A stretch of 32,110 nt of DNA from Bacilli bacterium (lineage in GTDB: Bacteria; Bacillota_I; Bacilli_A; RF39; UBA660): the NCBI GenBank assembly GCA_017936845.1, contig JAGBES010000011.1, positions 1-32,110 of the forward strand, given 5' to 3'. Positions 3,421-32,110 of the stretch are shown here, piece by piece. The notes beneath the pieces are model-generated. The model was given only the letters and a program-made list of their open reading frames with translations, was not told where the DNA came from and did not search any database. Every line of letters begins with the position of its first letter. The first letter of the stretch is position 1. The position numbers were made by a program, and so were the translations under genes.

Positions 3421-4734
3421 TTAAGGATCTAATCTATTTGGTCCTCTAAAGATAAATTGTGCATTTTTTATTGTTAATCCTAATAATAACATTGTAAGTC
3501 TATCAATTCCTATTGCGAATCCACCATGTGGTGGGCAACCATATTTAAAGAATTCTAGATAAAATTTAACATCTTCTTTAAGTCCTTTTTCATTAGCATT
3601 TTTAACTAATTCATCATATCTATGTTCTCTTTGTGCACCACTTGTTATTTCTGTACCTCTCCATATTAAATCATATCCTTGAAGTACTCCATCTTCATTT
3701 CTCATATGATAAAATGGTCTTTTGGTAGCTGCATATCCTACTATAAAAATAAATTCACTATTATATTTTTCTAAAGCAAATTTATATGTTAATTTTTCTG
3801 CCTCAGCATTCATATCACCAATATCTTCTGTTGGTATTTCAAAATCATATCTTTCATGTAATTCTTGATATAAATCTTTAAGTTTTATTCTTGGAAATGG
3901 CTTAGTTGGTATTATTACTTCTTTATCAAATACTTCTTTTATTTTTTCACCATATTTTTCTTTTACTTTTGAAAGACCAGCTATAAGTAGGTCTTCTTCT
4001 AAATCCATTACATCCTCATAAGAATCTATATATGAAAATTCTAAATCAAATGAAGTAAATTCAGTAGCATGTCTATTTGTATTTGAATTTTCAGCTCTAA
4101 ATGCAGGAGCTACTTCAAATATTTTAGACATTCCTGCTGCCATAGCCATTTGTTTATAGAATTGTGGAGATTGAGCTAAATATGCTTTTCTATCAAAATA
4201 TTTTACTTCAAATACTTCACTACCTGATTCAGAAGCTGCTCCTATTAATTTTGGAGTATGAATTTCTGTAAAATCATTTTGATATAGATATTCTCTCATA
4301 GCTTGTACCATTGTTGATTCTATTTGACGAATTAACATATTTTTTTCATTTCTTAAATCTATCCATCTATAATCTAATCTTGTATCTATATTAACTCCTT
4401 CTAAATTATTATAATCAAATGGTAAATTTAAAGCTTTACTAGTAACTTCTATTTTAGTTGGTATTAATTCTATTCCTCCTAATTTTACTGCTTCATTTTT
4501 TGTTAATTTTCCTGTTATTTTTACTGTACTTTCAACAGTTATATCATTCATTATTTCAAGTAATTCTTTGTTTTGTTCTTCACTTTTTTCTATAGTCATT
4601 TGTACTTTACCTGTACTATCTCTTAAAATTACAAACATTACCCATTTTTTATCTCTTATAGTATCAATAAAACCACTAAATTCTATTTCTTTATCTATAT
4701 AGTTATTCAATTCATTTACATATATTTTTTTCAT
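3421..4734 (-). CDS. aspS: Aspartyl-tRNA synthetase, archaeal/eukaryotic-type
   Basis: Class II synthetase that charges tRNA-Asp. The N-terminal OB-fold anticodon-binding domain spans about residues 1-105. The catalytic domain follows, with the motif 2 region FRAENSNTNRHATEF, then GTEITSGAQREHR and motif 3 GGFAIGIDRL. At 437 residues it lacks the large GAD insertion of ordinary bacterial AspRS (about 590 residues), so it is the short archaeal-type form, known in some Bacillota. Such enzymes are often non-discriminating and also make Asp-tRNA-Asn for GatCAB; the sequence alone does not settle this. Its ATG overlaps the hisS stop (ATGA), implying translational coupling. The C-terminus is RGPNRLDP rather than the RDPxRLxP that I expect for the family. 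Confidence 0.93.
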   Translation of the reverse strand: MKKIYVNELNNYIDKEIEFSGFIDTIRDKKWVMFVILRDSTGKVQMTIEKSEEQNKELLEIMNDITVESTVKITGKLTKNEAVKLGGIELIPTKIEVTSKALNLPFDYNNLEGVNIDTRLDYRWIDLRNEKNMLIRQIESTMVQAMREYLYQNDFTEIHTPKLIGAASESGSEVFEVKYFDRKAYLAQSPQFYKQMAMAAGMSKIFEVAPAFRAENSNTNRHATEFTSFDLEFSYIDSYEDVMDLEEDLLIAGLSKVKEKYGEKIKEVFDKEVIIPTKPFPRIKLKDLYQELHERYDFEIPTEDIGDMNAEAEKLTYKFALEKYNSEFIFIVGYAATKRPFYHMRNEDGVLQGYDLIWRGTEITSGAQREHRYDELVKNANEKGLKEDVKFYLEFFKYGCPPHGGFAIGIDRLTMLLLGLTIKNAQFIFRGPNRLDP

Positions 4735-6008
4735 ATATCTTCCTCTTCTATTTTTTCATCTAAAAAATCTAATATTTCTTCTTCTTTTACTTTATATTCT
4801 TTCTTATTTAAATTTTCTTTGACTGTTAATATTTTGCTATTTATTTCTTCTTCTCCAATTATTATTATATATTTTGGATTTAATCTATCTACTTGTTTAA
4901 AATTTGCTTTAATATTTCTATTCATATAATCTATATCTGTTTTAAATCCATTCATTCTTAAATCTTGACATAGTTTATAAGAATATTCTTTTTCATTTTC
5001 ACTCATTGGTATTATATATATATCTAAGCCATTATCTTCTATTTTTATATTTTCTGCTTTTATAGCATTTAATAGTCTTTCAAGTCCTAAAGCAAATCCA
5101 ACAGCAGCTGTTTTTGGTCCACCTAGTGTTTCTACTAAACCATTATATCTTCCTCCACCACATAATACATTATTGCTTCCAAATCCATTTATATCTGCTT
5201 CTACTTCAAATACTGTATTTGTATAATAGTCTAATCCTCTAACAATATTAGGATCTACTTTATAATCTATTTCCATTACTTCTAAATATTCTTGTACTTT
5301 TTTGAAATGATTAAGTGATTCTTCATTTAAATAATCTATTATTTTAGGAGCATTTTTCATACATTCTTTATCATGATCTATTTTACAATCTAGTATTCTT
5401 AAAGGATTTTTTAAAAATCTATTTTTACAATCATCACATAAATCATCTATATGTGGTTTAAAATGTTCTATTAATGCTTCTTTATATTTTAATCTTGATT
5501 CTATATCACCTAATGAATTAATACTTACTTTTATACCTTTAAGACCTATTAATTTATATAAATTTACAGGTATACTTATTATTTCTGCATCTAACATTGG
5601 ATCGTTTGATCCAAATACTTCTACACCAAATTGATAAAATTCTCTAAATCTTCCTGATTGTGGTCTTTCGTATCTATACATAGGACCATAATACCAATTT
5701 TTTACAGGAATATTAGGGTCAGCGTATCTTTTATTTTCAATAAAACTTCTTACTACTCCAGCTGTTCCTTCTGGTCTTAAAGTCATAGATCTATCTCCAC
5801 GATCTTTAAAATCATATGTTTCTTTAGAAACAATATCACTTGTTTCTCCTACACCTCTATGAAATAGTTCACTTGCTTCAAAAAGTGGTGTTCTCACATA
5901 TTCATAGTTATATTTATCCATTAACGCTTCTATTAATTTTTCTATATATTTTATTTCTTTATTATTTTCTTTATAAACATCATATGTTCCTTTTGGCTTT
6001 TGTATCAT
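4731..6008 (-). CDS. hisS: Histidyl-tRNA synthetase
   Basis: Class II synthetase of 425 residues, the usual length, that charges tRNA-His. Seen in order: the KPKGTYDV start, motif 1 region, motif 2 block with MYRYERPQSGRFREFYQFG, the histidine-specific RGLDYYTNTVFE motif, the Gly-rich GGGRYNGLVE block and motif 3 (AVGFALGLERL). A C-terminal anticodon-binding domain spans about residues 330-415. It follows the ClpX-like gene by 31 bases with an AAGGAGTG ribosome site, and overlaps aspS by four bases. Its expression should depend on the T-box at about 9022-9216, since I see no terminator or strong promoter between the genes. Confidence 0.96.
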   Translation of the reverse strand: MIQKPKGTYDVYKENNKEIKYIEKLIEALMDKYNYEYVRTPLFEASELFHRGVGETSDIVSKETYDFKDRGDRSMTLRPEGTAGVVRSFIENKRYADPNIPVKNWYYGPMYRYERPQSGRFREFYQFGVEVFGSNDPMLDAEIISIPVNLYKLIGLKGIKVSINSLGDIESRLKYKEALIEHFKPHIDDLCDDCKNRFLKNPLRILDCKIDHDKECMKNAPKIIDYLNEESLNHFKKVQEYLEVMEIDYKVDPNIVRGLDYYTNTVFEVEADINGFGSNNVLCGGGRYNGLVETLGGPKTAAVGFALGLERLLNAIKAENIKIEDNGLDIYIIPMSENEKEYSYKLCQDLRMNGFKTDIDYMNRNIKANFKQVDRLNPKYIIIIGEEEINSKILTVKENLNKKEYKVKEEEILDFLDEKIEEEDI

Positions 6009-6039: not shown

Positions 6040-7527
6040 CTACTTTAATTTATATATCTTAGGGTTATTTATAGTTTCATCTGTTAATATTACTTCTCTA
6101 TATTTACTATTACTTGTCATTATTTGCCATCTTAGTTCATTAATAGATTCTTCTATTATTCTTTTTAATGATCTTGCTCCTGTATCAAGTAAAATACTTT
6201 TCTCTGCGACCTTTTTTATATATTCATCTGTATAATTAAATTCTATATTATAATTATCTTTAAAGAAGTTTTTATAAAATAATAATGGACTATTTATTGA
6301 ACTTGTTAATATTTCTATTAATGTATCTTCATCTAAATCATTCATTATTGATAATATAGGAAATCTTCCTATAAACTCATTAGGCATCATACCTATTTTA
6401 GTAAAATCATCTAATGTATAATTTCTATTTTGTTTTTCTTTTGTATTATTAAAACCTATTATACTTTTATCTTTATATTCTAAAATATTAGTAAATGCTC
6501 CTAGAGCATATATAGATAATTTTGATGTATCAAAGCGATAAGTTCTATTGTTATATTTTACATTAAATTCTGTTCCATCTAGAAATGGTAATAAAGAATT
6601 TAATACTCCTCTACCAGCTACATCATCATTACTTGAACTTCCTTTTTTATCTATTTCATCTAGTGCGACTATTCCTCTTTCAGCAATTTCTAAATTTCCT
6701 TTTGCTAATGCTAAAAGAGGTGCTAGTATATTACCCTCTATTGTTCCTCCAACATATCCAGCTACTGTTATTTGCGTTGAATCTGTTCTTATAAATGGTC
6801 TATCTACTAATTTTCCTATAGTTCTAATTATTTCTGTTTTTCCTGTTCCTGTTTTTCCTACTATTAAACATCTGTTTCTCTCACTTGGCCTTTTAGCATA
6901 TTCATCTATTTGAATGGATGTTAAAATATCTCTTATTACATGATCTTGTCCTTTTACTACTTTTCTTGTTTCATCATATAAGTATTTTATATCTAAGCTT
7001 TTTGTTTCTAATTTAAAAATATCTTCTAATTCTTTTTGTTTTTTTTCGTGACTTTCTACACTGTATTTTTCATCATATATATTAAGTAGTCTTGTTATAT
7101 TTTCTTTCATTTTTATATAATCTGTTTTATTATCTAAGTTTTTGAAAAATTCATAATTTATTTCTTTTTCTTCTTTTAAATTTTCTAAATCTATTTGATG
7201 TATATCTAATTTTCCTATTTTATAATTATATTCTGTTATATAAATTATCCTACTATAATCTTCAAAATATTTTTCTAATTGTTCTTCTTTTGAATAAATA
7301 CTTGAATCATAAAATTTATCTAATCCTTCTAAAACTATTTCATTATCAAAGCAATATTTATTTTCACTTTCTATTAATTCTATTGATGGTATTTGATTTC
7401 CATTTTCTTTTATTAATCTATTATGTTCTATTTCTCCTACTATAGAACACAATGGTTTATATAAGTTATATATGCCCTCTTCTAATACTATTTTTTCCAT
7501 TAAAATAGCACAATACTTTTTTTTCAT
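6040..7527 (-). CDS. ClpX-type AAA+ ATPase with novel N-terminal domain
   Basis: This 495-residue protein has a ClpX/HslU-type AAA+ module from about residue 185: Walker A GKTGTGKT (224-231), a GYVG pore loop (258-261), Walker B IVALDEID (286-293), GRFP (387-390) and the sensor-2 block GARSLKR (about 446). An IGF tripeptide (357-359) sits where ClpX carries its ClpP-docking loop, so pairing with ClpP is plausible. The ClpX zinc-binding domain is absent. It is replaced by about 180 residues that resemble the N-terminus of the next AAA+ protein upstream (7537-9003). Likely role: ATP-driven unfolding or remodelling of an unknown substrate. It lies between that gene (9-base gap) and hisS in the T-box operon. 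Confidence 0.88.
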   Translation of the reverse strand: MKKKYCAILMEKIVLEEGIYNLYKPLCSIVGEIEHNRLIKENGNQIPSIELIESENKYCFDNEIVLEGLDKFYDSSIYSKEEQLEKYFEDYSRIIYITEYNYKIGKLDIHQIDLENLKEEKEINYEFFKNLDNKTDYIKMKENITRLLNIYDEKYSVESHEKKQKELEDIFKLETKSLDIKYLYDETRKVVKGQDHVIRDILTSIQIDEYAKRPSERNRCLIVGKTGTGKTEIIRTIGKLVDRPFIRTDSTQITVAGYVGGTIEGNILAPLLALAKGNLEIAERGIVALDEIDKKGSSSNDDVAGRGVLNSLLPFLDGTEFNVKYNNRTYRFDTSKLSIYALGAFTNILEYKDKSIIGFNNTKEKQNRNYTLDDFTKIGMMPNEFIGRFPILSIMNDLDEDTLIEILTSSINSPLLFYKNFFKDNYNIEFNYTDEYIKKVAEKSILLDTGARSLKRIIEESINELRWQIMTSNSKYREVILTDETINNPKIYKLK

Positions 7528-7536
7528 AAAATCCCC

Positions 7537-9003
7537 CTAGAAACCTAATTTTTTTACTTTTTGTTTAAATAATAATGAATTTATAACATCTTCTGTTAAA
7601 TCATCTTTTGATAAGGTTTTTAATTTTTCTATATCTTCTATATTTTCTGTATTTGATGCATGTTCTAATATTATTTTTTCTAGTAATTTATCTATATATC
7701 TTCCATTACCAAAATTTTTACTTTCTTTTGCTATTCTTACTTCTCTTAGTATTTTTTCTTTTAATTCTTCTTCTACTTTAAATCCCATTTTTAAAGCTTT
7801 TTTATTAAAAATTTCTAATAATTGTTTTTCTGTATAATCTTCATATTCTAAATAATATCCTATTCTTGATGAAAGTCCAGGATTTATCTTCATAAATTTT
7901 TCCATTTCATCTTTATAACCAGCAAATATAAATACTGTTTCATGGTTTTCTAATTCTTTTAATATTTCTACTAATGCTTCATCTGCAAATTCTTGTGCAT
8001 CTGATGAAAATACATATGCTTCATCAATAAAAATTACTCCACCTTTATTTTTCTTTATAAATCTATCTGTTTTAATTGCTGTTTGACCTACATATCCAGC
8101 AATTAATTCTCTTGGTGTTATCTCAGCAAATGTATCTTTTTTTATATAACCCATATTATAGTATAATTTACCTATTATTCTAGCTACTGTTGTTTTTCCT
8201 GTTCCTGGATTACCTGTAAAAAACATATGCAGATTTGGTTCTTCTAATGTTAAATTATTTTCTACTTTTTTTCTAAAGCTTAAATATCTTTGTAGTTTTA
8301 GAATTTCTTTTTTTATATTATCTAATCCTATTAATTTATTTAATTCATCTAAAGTTTTAGTTAAATCTTTATTTTCTTCTATTTCTTCTTGTTCTTCTAT
8401 TTTTTCTGTTTTAATTCCAAACATCTGATATACTTTATCATTTGCTTCATTAATACTTTTTATGACTTTATTTATTTCTTCATCTAAATATTCATATTTC
8501 TTTTCTTTTATAATTTCACTTATTTTTTTTAAATCACTTTTAGTAAAAGATATTATTTGATCACCATCACTATCATATGATATGCTATATTCTCTAAATA
8601 AATCATCTGTATCTTTTACTTCTTTTAATACTTTTTCATTTGAAGTCAATATTTTTATTGAATCCATTTCCTCATCATAATATCCTATTGTTAATATTGG
8701 ACTTATATCATCTAAATACCTACATGCAATTTCTTCTATACTTAAATCTTTTCCATACATTTCTTCTAACATAGAAATTAACATAGGATATCCATAACAA
8801 TATTTTTCTTCTGATATAACAAAGTATGGACATTCTAAACTTTGCAATGTTATTTTTTGTCCATCATTATAATAAGTTAATTCATCAAATTCATCAGTTA
8901 AATTAATGTATCCGTTTGTTATTACACCTATTCTTTTAAAACTATATAAATTATCACTTAATTGATTTTTTTCATATAATACTGCCATATATCTTTCTTC
9001 CAT
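7537..9003 (-). CDS. CbxX/CfxQ (SpoVK-like) AAA+ ATPase with novel N-terminal domain
   Basis: This 488-residue protein has a C-terminal AAA+ domain of the CbxX/CfxQ/SpoVK type: GLDNIKKEI (226-234), Walker A GNPGTGKT (264-271), AGYVGQTA (302-309), Walker B VIFIDEA (323-329), and a GNGRYIDKL sensor-2 region. CbbX relatives remodel Rubisco, but Bacillota members have other, mostly unknown roles. Residues 1-200 are not part of the usual family. They align by eye with the N-terminus of the downstream ClpX-like protein: xxxYxAxLxEK at 4-12, then SExKYC at 64-69. An AGGAGGG ribosome site precedes ATG. It is the first gene after the T-box, so its expression should follow tRNA-Asp charging. Confidence 0.88.
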   Translation of the reverse strand: MEERYMAVLYEKNQLSDNLYSFKRIGVITNGYINLTDEFDELTYYNDGQKITLQSLECPYFVISEEKYCYGYPMLISMLEEMYGKDLSIEEIACRYLDDISPILTIGYYDEEMDSIKILTSNEKVLKEVKDTDDLFREYSISYDSDGDQIISFTKSDLKKISEIIKEKKYEYLDEEINKVIKSINEANDKVYQMFGIKTEKIEEQEEIEENKDLTKTLDELNKLIGLDNIKKEILKLQRYLSFRKKVENNLTLEEPNLHMFFTGNPGTGKTTVARIIGKLYYNMGYIKKDTFAEITPRELIAGYVGQTAIKTDRFIKKNKGGVIFIDEAYVFSSDAQEFADEALVEILKELENHETVFIFAGYKDEMEKFMKINPGLSSRIGYYLEYEDYTEKQLLEIFNKKALKMGFKVEEELKEKILREVRIAKESKNFGNGRYIDKLLEKIILEHASNTENIEDIEKLKTLSKDDLTEDVINSLLFKQKVKKLGF

Positions 9004-9021: not shown

Positions 9022-9216
9022 ATAAAAAATCTATAATTATAAGGGCGAATTAATCGCTGTGCCACCTTATTTTATAGATTTAACTACCTTTAATCTTTAA
9101 CGCAGATATACGATTTATCTTTAATTTGATGTCTTCTATATACTTTTATTAAATGTTTTCACCAACCACATTTTCTCTATTAATAATTATATATATACTC
9201 TTTCAAAAAATAATTT
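9022..9216 (-). promoter_or_regulatory. T-box riboswitch, probably sensing tRNA-Asp
   Basis: The leader contains the T-box sequence AAGGTGGCACAGCG (9068-9055). It closes with CGCCCTT (9047-9041) to make the antiterminator AAGG-[UGGCACA bulge]-GCG/CGC-CCTT. The competing terminator pairs AAATCTATA (9081-9073) with TATAGATTT (9035-9027) and ends in a T run. A GGTTGGTGAAAAC block (about 9166-9154) looks like the Stem I apical region. The bulge base after UGG is C and would pair with discriminator G73 of tRNA-Asp, not C73 of tRNA-His. The specifier region AGAAGACATC contains GAC (Asp, 9133-9131). Uncharged tRNA-Asp should allow read-through into AAA-AAA-hisS-aspS. T-box identity is firm; amino-acid assignment is inference. 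Confidence 0.9.
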
Positions 9217-9251: not shown

Positions 9252-9278
9252 GAAAAAATAGAGAATTTTAATTCTCTA
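9252..9278 (-). terminator. clpB terminator
   Basis: Nine-base arms TAGAGAATT and AATTCTCTA with a two-base loop, then six T residues on the minus strand. The clpB stop codon (9270-9268) sits in the loop, so the hairpin includes the last codons. Confidence 0.8.
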
Positions 9279-11361
9279 TATATAATTTGTTATTATTAAC
9301 ATCTATAGTAATAATACTATTAAATTTTATTTCATCATTTATAATAGCTTTTCCTATTAATGTTTCTAAGTTTCTTGATACAAATCTTTTAATAGGTCTA
9401 GCACCAAAATCTTCATCATATGATTGATCTATTATATAGTCTTTTGCTTCTTTTGTTAAATTAATTTTTATCTTTTTATCGCTTAATCTATTTTCTATTG
9501 TTTCTATTATTTTATCTAAAATATTATATACTATTTCTTTCTTTAATGAATTAAATATTATTATTTCATCTATTCTATTTAAAAATTCTGGTTTAAAATA
9601 ATTTCTTAATTCTTGATTTACTAATTCTTTTGCATTTTCTTTATTATTAAGTATATATTCACTTCCTAGATTTGATGTCATAATTATTATAGTATTTTTA
9701 AAATCTACTGTTCTACCTTGTGAATCGGTAATTCTTCCATCATCTAGTATTTGAAGTAAAATATTTAAAACATCTTTATGAGCTTTTTCTATTTCATCAA
9801 ATAATACTATACTATATGGATTTCTTCTTACTGCTTCTGTAAGTTGTCCACCTTCATCATATCCTACATATCCTGGAGGAGCTCCAACTAATCTAGATAC
9901 AGAATGTGCTTCCATATATTCACTCATATCAATTCTAATCATATGTCTTTCATCATCAAAAAGTTCATAAGCTAAAGTTCTAGCTACTTCTGTTTTACCA
10001 ACTCCTGTTGGCCCTAAAAATATAAATGATCCAATTGGTCTATTAGGATCTTTAATACCTGCACGTGCTCTTATAATAGCTTCACTTACAAGTTTTAAAG
10101 CTTCATCTTGACCTTTTACTCTTTTTTTCATATTATTTTCTAGATTAATTAGTTTTTCTTTTTCCCCTCCTACTAATTTAGTAATTGGAATATTAGTTAT
10201 TCTAGAAATAACACTTGCTACTCCTTCTTCATCTACTGTATCTGATAAAATTTTAGATGAATCTATTTTTCTTAAGTCTTCTAATTCTTTTTCTAGTCTT
10301 GGTAATGTACCATGTCTTAATTTAGCAGCTGTTTCTAAGTCATAATTATTTTCAGCTGTTTCAAGTTCAAATTTTGTTTTTTCTATTTCTCTTTTTTTAG
10401 ATTTTATATTTTCATTTACTTTTTTTTCTGCTTCCCAATTATCTCTTAAAATAGTTTCTTTTTCTTTTAATTTTTCTATTTCTTCTTTTAGTACATTAAC
10501 TCTATTTTTTGATATATCATCCTTATCTTTTTTTATTGCTTCTAATTCTATTTTTTTCATCATTATTTTTCTTGTTAATTCATCTAATTCTTCTGGTACA
10601 GAGTCCATTTGAACTTTTATAGTTGCACATGCTTGATCTATAAGACCAATTGCTTTATCTGGCAAAAATCTATCTGTTATATATCTATCTGATAAAGTGG
10701 CAGCAGCAATTAAAGCTTTATCTTTTATATTAACTCCATGATATACTTCGTATCTTGATTTTAATCCTCTTAAAATTGTTATTGTATCTATTACAGATGG
10801 TTCTTTTACTAAGACTTTCTCAAATCTTCTTTCAAGAGCTCCATCTTTTTCTATATATTTCCTATATTCATTTAAAGTAGTTGCTCCTATTAATTTTATT
10901 TCACCACGTGCTAGTGAAGGTTTTAACATATTACTTGTATCAACAGTTCCTTCACCACTACCTACTATCATATGAATTTCATCAATAAACATAATAATTG
11001 AACCATCACTATCAGTTACTTTTTTTAATACAGCTTTTAATCTTTCTTCAAATTCACCTTTATATTTAGCTCCTGCTATAAGAGAACCCATATCTAGTTC
11101 CCAAATTGTTTTTCCTTTTAAACTATCTGGTACATCTCCTTTTATTATACGAGCTGCAAGTCCTTCCACTATTGCTGTCTTACCAACTCCTGGCTCACCT
11201 ATTAAAACTGGATTATTTTTTGTTTTTCTTGATAAAATTTGAGTAATGCTTCTAATTTCTTCATCTCTTCCTATTACAGGATCAATTTTTCCATCTCTTA
11301 CACTTTTAGTAATATCACGTCCATATTTTTCTAAAACATTTGATGTATCTTCCATATTCAT
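9268..11361 (-). CDS. clpB: ClpB-type disaggregase lacking the N-terminal domain
   Basis: Two tandem AAA+ modules. D1 has Walker A GEPGVGKT (about residues 55-62 from the chosen start); D2 has GPTGVGKT and the [14 protein letters not shown] pore region. They are separated by a coiled-coil middle domain (about 260-390) long enough for ClpB rather than ClpC. No ClpP-docking IGF tripeptide is seen. ClpB works with DnaK to extract proteins from aggregates. The usual 150-residue N-domain is missing: the protein opens only a few residues before the LEKYGRD that precedes D1. I chose the ATG at 11361 because AAGGAGGA lies 7-8 bases before it; an upstream in-frame ATG at 11379 overlaps that site. Controlled by a CIRCE/HrcA promoter. 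Confidence 0.92.
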
Positions 11362-11422
11362 AAACATTCCTCCTTCCATTTAAAAAAAGTATAATACTAT
11401 ACTTCTTTCAAATTACAATATA

Positions 11423-13712: not shown

Positions 13713-13875
13713 AAAAAAAAACTAGAGATAGTCAATAACGATAAAACCGGTCTCCCCAGGTGGGTACAACATGTTAAGTTTAAGGATCCTTAAATTAATA
13801 AGTATTCAACAACCCTTAACAATTATGTTCCCAATCGTTATAAGTGTAGGTTTTTCTTAACAAACTATCTCTAGT
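13713..13875 (-). ncRNA. ssrS: 6S-like RNA
   Basis: A roughly 163-base transcript closed by a perfect 12-base stem: ACTAGAGATAGT (13875-13864) with ACTATCTCTAGT (13732-13721), followed by nine T residues. Further in, ATAACGAT pairs with ATCGTTAT (8 of 8) and TGTTAAG with CTTAACA (7 of 7). A TTTAAGGATCCTTAAA palindrome lies near the apex. One long rod with interior bulges, its own strong promoter, and a terminator formed by the closing stem is the architecture of 6S RNA, which binds sigma-A RNA polymerase. SRP RNA, tmRNA and RNase P motifs are absent. The identification rests on architecture, not alignment. Confidence 0.65.
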
Positions 13876-13881
13876 AATTTA

Positions 13882-29452: not shown

Positions 29453-30742
29453 CTATATTTCCATACCATCATCATTATTCTTTTCTAATTCTTCTTCCTC
29501 CTCATAATAATAATCATATGAATATTGTTGTTTACTTTCTTGTTCTTTTTGTCTTAATTTTTTTCTTTCTTCCATAATATCTGGATCATAGTCATGTTTG
29601 AAAGAAAATAAACTATAATTATTGTCAAACATCTTATCAACTATATTTTGTATGAATTTAGGAAGTTTTTTAAGTACTTTTTTTAAATGAGAAATCAAAT
29701 AATTTGTTTTTTCTTCTAATTCATTATATTTTTCTTCAATGTATTTATTTTCCCACTTTAAATGATTATTTTCTTCAGTTAATTTATTTATTTGATCCTG
29801 CATTTTATTTTTAGATTTAATAACTATTTTATTATTAACTCTTCTCTTTTTATCAATTTCTTTTTTTATATCTTCTTTATCATTATTTAAATCATTAATT
29901 TCTTCATTTATTTTTTGTTTATTATCTTTTAATTCAGAAACATCTTCTCTTAATTCATTTAATTCTTGTTTTAACTTTTCGGCTTTCTCATTAAATTTTA
30001 ATCTTTCATATGCAGAGTAATCTCTATTCTTACCTTTTTCTTTTTTCTTTAATTTATTATCTTTTGAATAAGCTAGATTAAATTCTTCGATACACTTACT
30101 TCTCATTTTATCTTGAATAACTACTAATGATTCTTTTGTGAATATTGATGTTTTACCAACTTGTCTTTCCATACCTGTTTTACAATTTTCTTTTACTGGA
30201 ACTCCAACTATATGCATATGTGGCGAATTTTCATCAAAATGAATTGTAGCATTAGCAATATAAAAGTCTGGAACTATTTCTTTTAAATCCTTTAATTGAT
30301 TTTCAAATACATCTGTCATTTTATATTTTTCTTCTAATGATTTATCTTCCCAATAAGCCATATTACCAATTTCAATTATAATCTCACAAGCAAGATCATG
30401 TTTATCATCATTTGATATTTTATAAAAATAATCATCTATTTTTCTATCATCACGAACTTGTTTATTATTATAATTAATTCTTGCTTCATCAAATAAATCT
30501 AAATATAAATCTTTAACATCTTTAATAATATCATTACTACCTTTAATAGTAGTAATAAGTTCATTATTATTATCATATTGTCTTAAATTATGATGATTTA
30601 CTTTTCCTAAATGTTTTATATTTTGTATAGCATTATTATTCTTTGATGTAGTTCCAGATGGTGAATTTAATGCTTCTTGTTTTGCTTTAATTGTTTTATT
30701 TTTATCATTACTTAAATGAAATGAATAAGATAGTTCTTCCAT
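29453..30742 (-). CDS. mob: MobV-family relaxase (Mob/Pre)
   Basis: A 429-residue relaxase that nicks at oriT and pilots single-stranded DNA during mobilization by a helper conjugation system. MobV motifs are present: HNLR (51-54) and the metal-site block IHFDENSPHMHIVG (H168, H175, H177). From residue 235 to 360 the protein is a long coiled coil, as usual in Mob/Pre. The C-terminus is acidic with a Tyr-rich run. ATG follows AGGGGGA. It lies downstream of an oriT-like region and a serine recombinase, the layout of an integrative mobilizable element. A truncated relative lies at 25562-25917. Confidence 0.93.
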   Translation of the reverse strand: MEELSYSFHLSNDKNKTIKAKQEALNSPSGTTSKNNNAIQNIKHLGKVNHHNLRQYDNNNELITTIKGSNDIIKDVKDLYLDLFDEARINYNNKQVRDDRKIDDYFYKISNDDKHDLACEIIIEIGNMAYWEDKSLEEKYKMTDVFENQLKDLKEIVPDFYIANATIHFDENSPHMHIVGVPVKENCKTGMERQVGKTSIFTKESLVVIQDKMRSKCIEEFNLAYSKDNKLKKKEKGKNRDYSAYERLKFNEKAEKLKQELNELREDVSELKDNKQKINEEINDLNNDKEDIKKEIDKKRRVNNKIVIKSKNKMQDQINKLTEENNHLKWENKYIEEKYNELEEKTNYLISHLKKVLKKLPKFIQNIVDKMFDNNYSLFSFKHDYDPDIMEERKKLRQKEQESKQQYSYDYYYEEEEELEKNNDDGMEI

Positions 30743-30796
30743 ATATTCCCCCTAAATAAGAATTTGTTTTTTAGCGATGAAACCCTCAAAGACATA

Positions 30797-30863
30797 ATTC
30801 ATAACTTCCTATATATCTTGTCATAAACAAGATATGGAAGCTAAGGTCAAACCTTAGAAACCG
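30797..30863 (-). other. Probable oriT of the MobV element
   Basis: Two tandem inverted repeats: ATATCTTG (30813-30820)/CAAGATAT (30828-30835) and CTAAGG (30841-30846)/CCTTAG (30852-30857), then AAACCG. It lies 60-120 bases upstream of mob, where MobV origins usually sit, and is repeated in diverged form at 25960-26020. The nick site is not identified. Confidence 0.65.
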
Positions 30864-30921
30864 AAATAATTATCGACTTCTTTCATTCTTTACAGAACAA
30901 AACGAACCACGATAATTTATA

Positions 30922-30962
30922 AATCATTTAAATTTATATACTATATAAATTAATAAATGATT
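30922..30962. repeat. Long AT palindrome after the recombinase gene
   Basis: AATCATTTA-rich arms form an imperfect hairpin of roughly 17 base pairs between the recombinase stop and the oriT-like region. It could be a bidirectional terminator or part of the transfer origin. Confidence 0.45.
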
Positions 30963-30996
30963 GTAGAAAATATTTTATTTAAAACATTTTCTATTA

Positions 30997-32110
30997 TTAA
31001 TAATCCATTTCATTGCTTTGCAACAAAACGGGCTTATTACCATCGTCAATATCAGGTATCATTTCAAATAAATCTGGTATATCTACTTTTATATCATTAG
31101 GATTATTTTTAGTAGTAAACATACCCATACCTAATATTTCCTTTTTATCATCATCTATTTCCGTTGGAAACATTCTGATAATAACTTCTCCATTTGTAAG
31201 TGGAACTGTATCAAATTCTTCTCTATCTTTATAATAAACACCTTTATAAAATTTAACATCATAACATTCATTTAAACTTTTAAAGTGTCTATAAACTTGT
31301 TTGGCTGATAAAAATTCACTATATCTAACTTTACTATCAATTCTTATACCATTCTTTTCATATATAAATTTTCTTTTACAATCTATAAATCCATCCTCAT
31401 ATAATTTCTTAAAATCTTTAAAGAATGTTGTTCTAAAATTAACTGATTTAACAATCCAATTTTTTAATGAATCTTGTTCTACTTCTATATCATCAATATA
31501 ATTCATTATTATTCTTGCTTTATCTTCTCTTGTTAAATCATTCCAACAATCTTCTATTGCTTTATATAACATTGGTATTTTAACTTGATTTATAAAATCC
31601 ATATCTCTTTTTATCAATATATCTTCTGGTCTAAATTTTAAATCTTTTATATTTTCTTGTTCTAATATTTTTCTTTCTAATTCATTTATTGTTTTATCTA
31701 AATATTCTATCTCGCTATCATGTTCTTCTAAAGTAAATGAACCATTTATATATGCTCGTTTTACTCTTTCTTTTTTAGCATTTAAATTATTTATTTCTTT
31801 AGTTAATTTTTCTTTTGGATTTTCTAATTTATTTTTTAAAAGTGGTAAAAAGAAATTATTAACAACTGAATCATATTCAAATATATCTCCAAGTAATTCT
31901 TTTATTGATTCTTCAATAGTAGTTTCTTTAATATTGTTTTTACAATGTTCACATCCATAGTAATAATATGTTCTATCAAATTTCTTTTTATATGTTGCTT
32001 TACCACCTAGAATAGCACCACAATTTGGACATAGTAATTTTTGTAAGAATAAATATGTTTTATTTCTACTATAACTTCTAGAATTCTTCTTTTGCTGTGC
32101 TTGGCAATTT
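30997..32110 (-). CDS. Large serine recombinase, C-terminal part (partial)
   Basis: An open frame of 371 codons runs off the right edge without a start. The first visible part has a recombinase zinc ribbon, CPNCG then GCEHC about 26 residues later. A coiled-coil motif follows (about KEKLTKEINNLNAKKERVKR), and then the usual C-terminal extension (LTREDKARIIMNYIDDIEVE). These are the DNA-binding parts of large serine integrases. The catalytic resolvase domain must lie beyond the window. Such enzymes integrate and excise mobilizable elements without host factors. The frame is continuous through the TTG at 31617, which is not a real start. Mob and the oriT-like region follow downstream. Confidence 0.9.
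   Translation of the reverse strand, partial: NCQAQQKKNSRSYSRNKTYLFLQKLLCPNCGAILGGKATYKKKFDRTYYYYGCEHCKNNIKETTIEESIKELLGDIFEYDSVVNNFFLPLLKNKLENPKEKLTKEINNLNAKKERVKRAYINGSFTLEEHDSEIEYLDKTINELERKILEQENIKDLKFRPEDILIKRDMDFINQVKIPMLYKAIEDCWNDLTREDKARIIMNYIDDIEVEQDSLKNWIVKSVNFRTTFFKDFKKLYEDGFIDCKRKFIYEKNGIRIDSKVRYSEFLSAKQVYRHFKSLNECYDVKFYKGVYYKDREEFDTVPLTNGEVIIRMFPTEIDDDKKEILGMGMFTTKNNPNDIKVDIPDLFEMIPDIDDGNKPVLLQSNEMDY

Follow-up and report, generated by a model that had tools for sequence, protein, structure and literature searches.

In the accepted view, the partners of the protease ClpP are Clp/Hsp100 unfoldases, which dock onto it by a loop. CbbX, of the CbxX/SpoVK family, is a remodeller, and neither the CbxX-type motors nor the ClpB class are known to work with ClpP. 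At the level of expression, T-box leaders bring about induction by uncharged tRNA. The main contact between ClpX and ClpP is the IGF loop (PMC7112951), and in HslUV it is the C-terminal tail of HslU that docks HslV (PMC4106860).

The locus discussed here lies in a stretch of 32,110 nucleotides (the window; contig JAGBES010000011.1 of assembly GCA_017936845.1, from a member of the Bacilli). The genome behind it is a draft of 1.12 Mb in 34 contigs, 88% complete. Two neighbouring genes of the window encode AAA+ proteins, P0001 with a ClpX-type motor and P0002 with a CbxX/SpoVK-type motor, and both motors carry the same N-terminal domain. Judged from sequence, there is an even chance that the two are different kinds of AAA+ unfoldase that share one fast-evolving N-domain and feed ClpP, one through a loop and the other through a tail.

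Two AAA+ genes ahead of hisS and aspS

All genes concerned lie on the minus strand, in the order FtsK-type gene, ClpB-like gene, T-box leader, P0002, P0001, hisS and aspS. A first, sequence-only reading of the window had placed adjacent genes for a ClpX-type and a CbxX-type ATPase here, and both open reading frames are found as described. P0002 (7537–9003, 488 aa) is separated by 9 nt from P0001 (6040–7527, 495 aa), which after a further 31 nt is followed by hisS (4731–6008), identified from its translated sequence and conserved as a neighbour in relatives. Next comes an aspS/asnS-type synthetase gene (3421–4734), recognised from its reading frame and sequence, and this order is again conserved in relatives. 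Upstream of P0002 lies a gene for a ClpB-like protein of 703 aa (9268–11379) without the ClpB N-domain, since the match to the ClpB model starts only at position 148.

The T-box leader (9038–9214, minus strand) ends about 35 nt before the start codon of P0002. It scores 76.9 bits against RF00230 (E = 5e-17), short of the 93 bits of the gathering threshold; leaders that stand before genes of this kind in five loci (L069, L070, L193, L198 and L203) reach 97–117 bits. Its likely specifier codon is GAC, for Asp (9131–9133), as judged from the position in the T-box alignment; GAC also stands in the homologous leaders shown. With its leader, the GAC specifier and the hisS-aspS pair, the window resembles the T-box hisS-aspS operons of Bacillota, but differs from them by the two AAA+ genes inserted between leader and hisS. 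Because they would be the first genes on the hisS-aspS transcript behind a probable Asp T-box, both proteins are expected to be produced once charged tRNA-Asp becomes scarce. We infer this induction by uncharged tRNA-Asp by analogy with known T-box action.

A shared N-terminal domain

The sequence-only reading had aligned the starts of the two proteins by eye. This homology holds and extends over about residues 1–180. BLASTP aligns P0001 and P0002 from residue 1 (E = 8e-10) in an alignment that extends into the P-loop, and the N-regions alone reach a pairwise score of 109, where shuffled sequences average 41.5 (SD 7.4) and none of 2000 shuffles scores as high. A comparison by profiles had also been proposed, and a profile built from ClpX-type N-domains only recovers P0002 at E = 6.6e-15 and the CbxX-type protein of locus L137 at 2e-16. 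In the opposite direction, a profile from CbxX-type N-domains only has ClpX-type proteins among its matches, at 2e-11, 6e-8 and 2e-8. This second profile does not match P0001 itself, so its link to P0001 goes via the relatives of that protein. Within the window the domain comprises aa 1–182 of P0002 (8458–9003, minus strand; profile match aa 5–182, E = 3e-37, together with the alignment) and aa 1–171 of P0001 (7015–7527, minus strand; profile match aa 4–171, E = 2e-27). The YxAxLxEK start and the SE-x-KYC motif lie exactly where they had been placed. The EE/D/S pattern is present as well, but its spacing, given earlier as x8 after the EE, is EE-x7-D-x-S in both proteins.

That the domain is common to two AAA+ clades and yet unrecognised is borne out by these profile links together with the database searches. 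Among the families of Pfam and PHROGs none matches more than one of ten N-domain members, and among solved structures there is no match below E = 0.09. The sole value under 0.001, to the Pfam family GtgE, came from one of the ten members, with the others giving no match, and was treated as chance. Residues 1–170 of P0001 have no significant match in Pfam, so no zinc-binding N-domain of the ClpX kind was found; in this P0001 differs from ClpX, as it carries a different N-domain of about 170 aa instead. AlphaFold2 models of the two N-domains, calculated with the two sequences as the only input, have mean pLDDT values of 46.8 and 45.3, a confidence below any claim on the fold, though the order of elements in them is similar (strands, two helices, a strand, later helices). 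Going by other AAA+ N-domains, the shared domain would most likely capture a substrate or an adaptor. A domain common to two motor clades further represents a natural swap system for separating the contributions of N-domain and motor.

Two motors and their tripeptides

The two motors belong to different AAA+ clades, in line with the sequence-only reading: ClpX models match P0001 with 176/157 bits, and the SpoVK and CbbX models match P0002 with 203 and 185 bits.

The ClpX-type motor of P0001 covers aa 178–495 (6043–6996, minus strand). It shares with ClpX the Walker A (224) and Walker B (288) motifs, the GYVG pore loop (aa 257–260; 6748–6759), the sensor 2 GAR within GARSLK (450) and the IGF loop (aa 357–359; 6451–6459). 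Both pore loop and IGF had been pointed out before and fall into conserved columns of the family alignment. Among the 61 ClpX-type motors that carry the N-domain, the G, Y and second G of the pore loop are kept in 60, 57 and 60 proteins, and the G and F of the IGF site in 61 and 57, with mostly I, L or M at its first residue. The conservation of this G and F is about equal to that of Walker A, in 61 proteins that have otherwise diverged widely. P0001 departs from ClpX in its place in a hisS-aspS operon and in its score of 176.3 bits, against a curated ClpX equivalog cut-off of 359. None of the 117 genomes of the window's family has a ClpX above this cut-off, and no ClpX derivatives other than the diverged ClpX-type proteins were seen in them. 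A search of genome contigs with P0001 returned Paenibacillus loci only, of which the one examined looks more like HslU than ClpX.

In P0002 the CbxX motor spans aa 216–471 (7591–8358, minus strand), with Walker A GNPGTGKT at 264 and Walker B FIDEAY at 325. It shares with the CbxX/SpoVK family (SpoVK, CbbX, EccA) the AAA motor and AAA_lid_6, both above the Pfam cut-off, and its nearest solved relatives are CbbX (1.5e-43) and EccA1. All equivalog scores stay below their cut-offs, with 203 vs 423 bits for SpoVK, 185 vs 459 for CbbX and 155 vs 467 for EccA, the last matching from residue 205 only; the Pfam scan of P0002 found no TPR. Two features set the protein apart from this family. One is the shared N-domain, which takes the place of other N-terminal regions, and the other is an extra tail, in which the C-terminus KVKKLGF ends with LGF as the last three residues (aa 486–488; 7540–7548, minus strand).

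This tail is a constant feature of the CbxX proteins with the N-domain. All eight intact ones have [IL]GF at the end or within 10 residues of it, on a short stretch behind the lid (KKLGF, KQIGFHK, KHIGF, KKIGF, KNIGF, KNIGF, KTIGFK and NEIGFALTKK); a ninth protein (L196) is split into two reading frames and stands outside this count. CbxX proteins of the window's family without the N-domain stop at the lid or shortly behind it, except for a double protein (L142) described below, and one SpoVK from Bacillus velezensis and one CbbX from Paraburkholderia, examined for comparison, lack the tail. An IGF near the end also occurs in CbxX proteins from Lachnospira eligens and in those encoded on three contigs from the human gut that bear the label phage, so the tail is spread more widely than the N-domain. 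The contrast drawn by the sequence-only reading, of an unfoldase paired with a remodeller, is probably wrong: as the CbxX type ends in a ClpP-type tripeptide too, both proteins look like ClpP-feeding unfoldases. By docking a protease with the C-terminal tail of an AAA+ ring, P0002 would resemble HslU. It differs from HslUV, of which it is not a member, by the ClpP-type [IL]GF of the tail and the CbxX type of the motor.

Distribution and diversification of the N-domain

Of the 385 genomes in the window's order, 61 gave a match to the N-domain (E ≤ 0.001), all within the window's family, and in 395 genomes of the class no more than two matches, both weak, fall outside that family. This distribution is narrow and also patchy, as the domain is missing from two other genomes of the genus to which the window belongs. 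An iterated search over all fetched loci gave 76 N-domain reading frames, 61 with ClpX-type and nine with CbxX-type motors, the remaining six being short, cut or motor-less.

The sequence-only reading had proposed a two-motor system. An obligate one is not supported by these genomes, since most of those with the domain have a single such gene. Two N-domain genes occur in only four of the 61 genomes, one of which has two CbxX types (G034), leaving three with both kinds: the window genome, G221 and G023. In these the two genes are adjacent and lie beside hisS or the synthetase gene that follows it. In G221 (L216) a CbxX type is separated by 14 nt from a ClpX type, which in turn lies 78 nt ahead of hisS. 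In G023 (L225) two N-domain reading frames come after hisS and the aspS-type gene, neither with a detectable motor, and the N-domain of one groups with the ClpX type, that of the other with the CbxX type. Elsewhere a single gene occupies the place between T-box and hisS-aspS. It is of the CbxX type in L193, L198 and L203 and of the ClpX type in L068, L069 and L189; L070 shows the same placement with a protein below the N-domain threshold. Because either motor type is found alone at this address, the two look interchangeable there rather than obligate partners.

The hisS-aspS operon is a recurrent setting of N-domain genes, often directly behind an Asp T-box; in L079, L097, L222 and L234 such genes directly follow the aspS-type gene, and others lie elsewhere. 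Linkage to hisS/aspS is seen for 16 of 86 ClpX-type motors. Traced on the motor tree it requires 10 changes, at least five of them forced by well-supported branches, and it is more clustered than in shuffles. Such repeated linkage, with N-domain genes at both ends of the operon, would fit quality-control unfoldases that act on the operon's own two synthetases, for His and Asp, or on the products of mistranslation under Asp or His scarcity. We consider this explanation quite improbable, as 51 of the 60 ClpX-type N-domain genes with context are unlinked to hisS/aspS, which makes the linkage recurrent but far from universal, and a fast-evolving N-domain would be odd for binding conserved synthetases.

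How fast the domain evolves is seen in its terminal branches, whose median length is 1.08 changes per column, compared with 0.46 in the motors. The CbxX-type N-domains are compatible with one clade among the ClpX-type ones in a poorly resolved tree (p-AU 0.51), which suggests that the domain passed once between the two motor types, in either direction. A recent duplication was considered as the source of the shared domain and found unsupported, since the N-domains of P0001 and P0002 stand apart in the tree. Rapid change, together with broken or motor-less copies (L074, L196 and L225), speaks for an accessory role, not a core one.

These same traits could be read as a sign of conflict, in which accessory genes, for example against phages, ride in an essential operon while their N-domain follows a changing foreign target. 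Terminal branches about twice those of the motors, presence in 61 of 385 genomes, varied neighbourhoods and decayed copies would all fit, and so would the T-box leader, which could tie expression to the depletion of tRNA when phages or toxins attack it. We nevertheless hold this to be unlikely. Known defence families gave generic AAA+ matches only, no defence-type neighbours were recognised around the genes, and viral scans, run with P0001, P0002 and two relatives, came back empty and gave no sign of a phage origin. A role in conflict could also be combined with delivery to ClpP.

A possible route into ClpP

In the reading that we consider evenly balanced, delivery to ClpP, the AAA+ rings would unfold what the N-domain has captured and thread it into the protease. 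The ClpX type would dock ClpP by its IGF loop and the CbxX type by its [IL]GF tail, in the manner of the HslU tail on HslV. Taken further, P0002 would stand for an undescribed CbxX class of ClpP unfoldase that docks by an [IL]GF tail, with two motors that share a rapidly changing recruitment domain, serve one protease and are induced together by an Asp T-box; to this fuller version we give somewhat less than an even chance. If true, a CbxX motor with a C-terminal tripeptide tail would be another architecture, besides the loop, by which ClpP is fed. CbxX/SpoVK-like ATPases without an assignment are numerous, and for some of them this would suggest what they do. A literature search, with most subscription papers outside its scope, found none naming CbxX together with ClpP, and the few papers that have SpoVK or CbbX alongside ClpP mention no such partnership in their titles or abstracts.

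ClpP is encoded by the window genome and in 103 of the 117 genomes of its family. Three genomes that are 94–97% complete (G043, G057 and G082) have a ClpX type with an intact tripeptide and no clpP that could be found. Compared across genomes with and without clpP, the IGF falls short of a proof of ClpP dependence. Among 91 good genomes clpP is missing in nine, only about twice the expectation from incompleteness, so the genomes without it are not decisive against delivery to ClpP. As for other Clp proteins of the window genome, the ClpB-like neighbour contains no [ILVMF]GF at all, and a ClpC-like protein has VGF.

Docking by the tail is the surprising part, and the case for it is built from motif conservation and three relatives in which a GF-tailed CbxX gene without the N-domain is linked to clpP. 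In G437 a CbxX protein of 558 aa ends with TKFGF, and clpP follows after 13 nt. In G069 (L142, 6741–10252) a double CbxX protein of 972 aa, with KSKFGF near its end, overlaps by 4 nt with a second clpP gene. In G533 a CbxX protein ending with RYGFY is followed by two small YbjN-type genes and then clpP. For CbxX genes that lack the N-domain and have enough flanking sequence, clpP is near in three of four GF-tailed cases and in none of 20 untailed ones (Fisher p = 0.002, from few cases and with the tail pattern widened to allow F/Y as first residue once L142 was known). All three clpP-linked tails read FGF or YGF, looser than the classical [ILV]GF. The strictly IGF-tailed CbxX proteins without the N-domain (G470, G570, L322 and L326–L328) have no clpP near; one of them, in G470, ends with KKIGF and has two similarly placed small genes behind it.

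Could the shared domain instead serve recruitment or dimerisation in remodellers that are independent of ClpP, with an IGF inherited from ClpX and a GF tail that makes some other contact, such as one to a neighbouring subunit or to a different partner? Intact IGF sites in genomes without detectable clpP speak for it, as do the N-domain CbxX genes, none of which adjoins clpP, and the role of the solved relative CbbX in remodelling. On the other hand, inheritance alone hardly explains an IGF-site G and F that come near to the invariance of Walker A despite fast evolution, and the tail recurs as a ClpP tripeptide, with related tails sitting beside clpP in separate lineages. We therefore regard this alternative as somewhat unlikely.

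Further features of the loci

In L142 the double CbxX gene and clpP are followed by a gene for a protein of 1535 aa with weak TPR matches. L280 (5541–9144) shows the succession CbxX, two small YbjN-type genes and clpP, and L281 (5877–9232) a CbxX gene with two small genes. In L139, L141 and L143–L148 one pair of conserved genes recurs ahead of CbxX genes without the N-domain, apparently a separate CbxX system.

The neighbourhood of ClpB-like and CbxX-type genes seen in the window recurs in L136 (G034). Elsewhere in the window, a 6S RNA lies at 13715–13880 on the minus strand, with a score just over gathering. Towards the right end (29453–32109, minus strand), translations read by eye resemble a relaxase-type mobilisation protein and the end of a recombinase, which suggests that this part of the window belongs to a mobile element.
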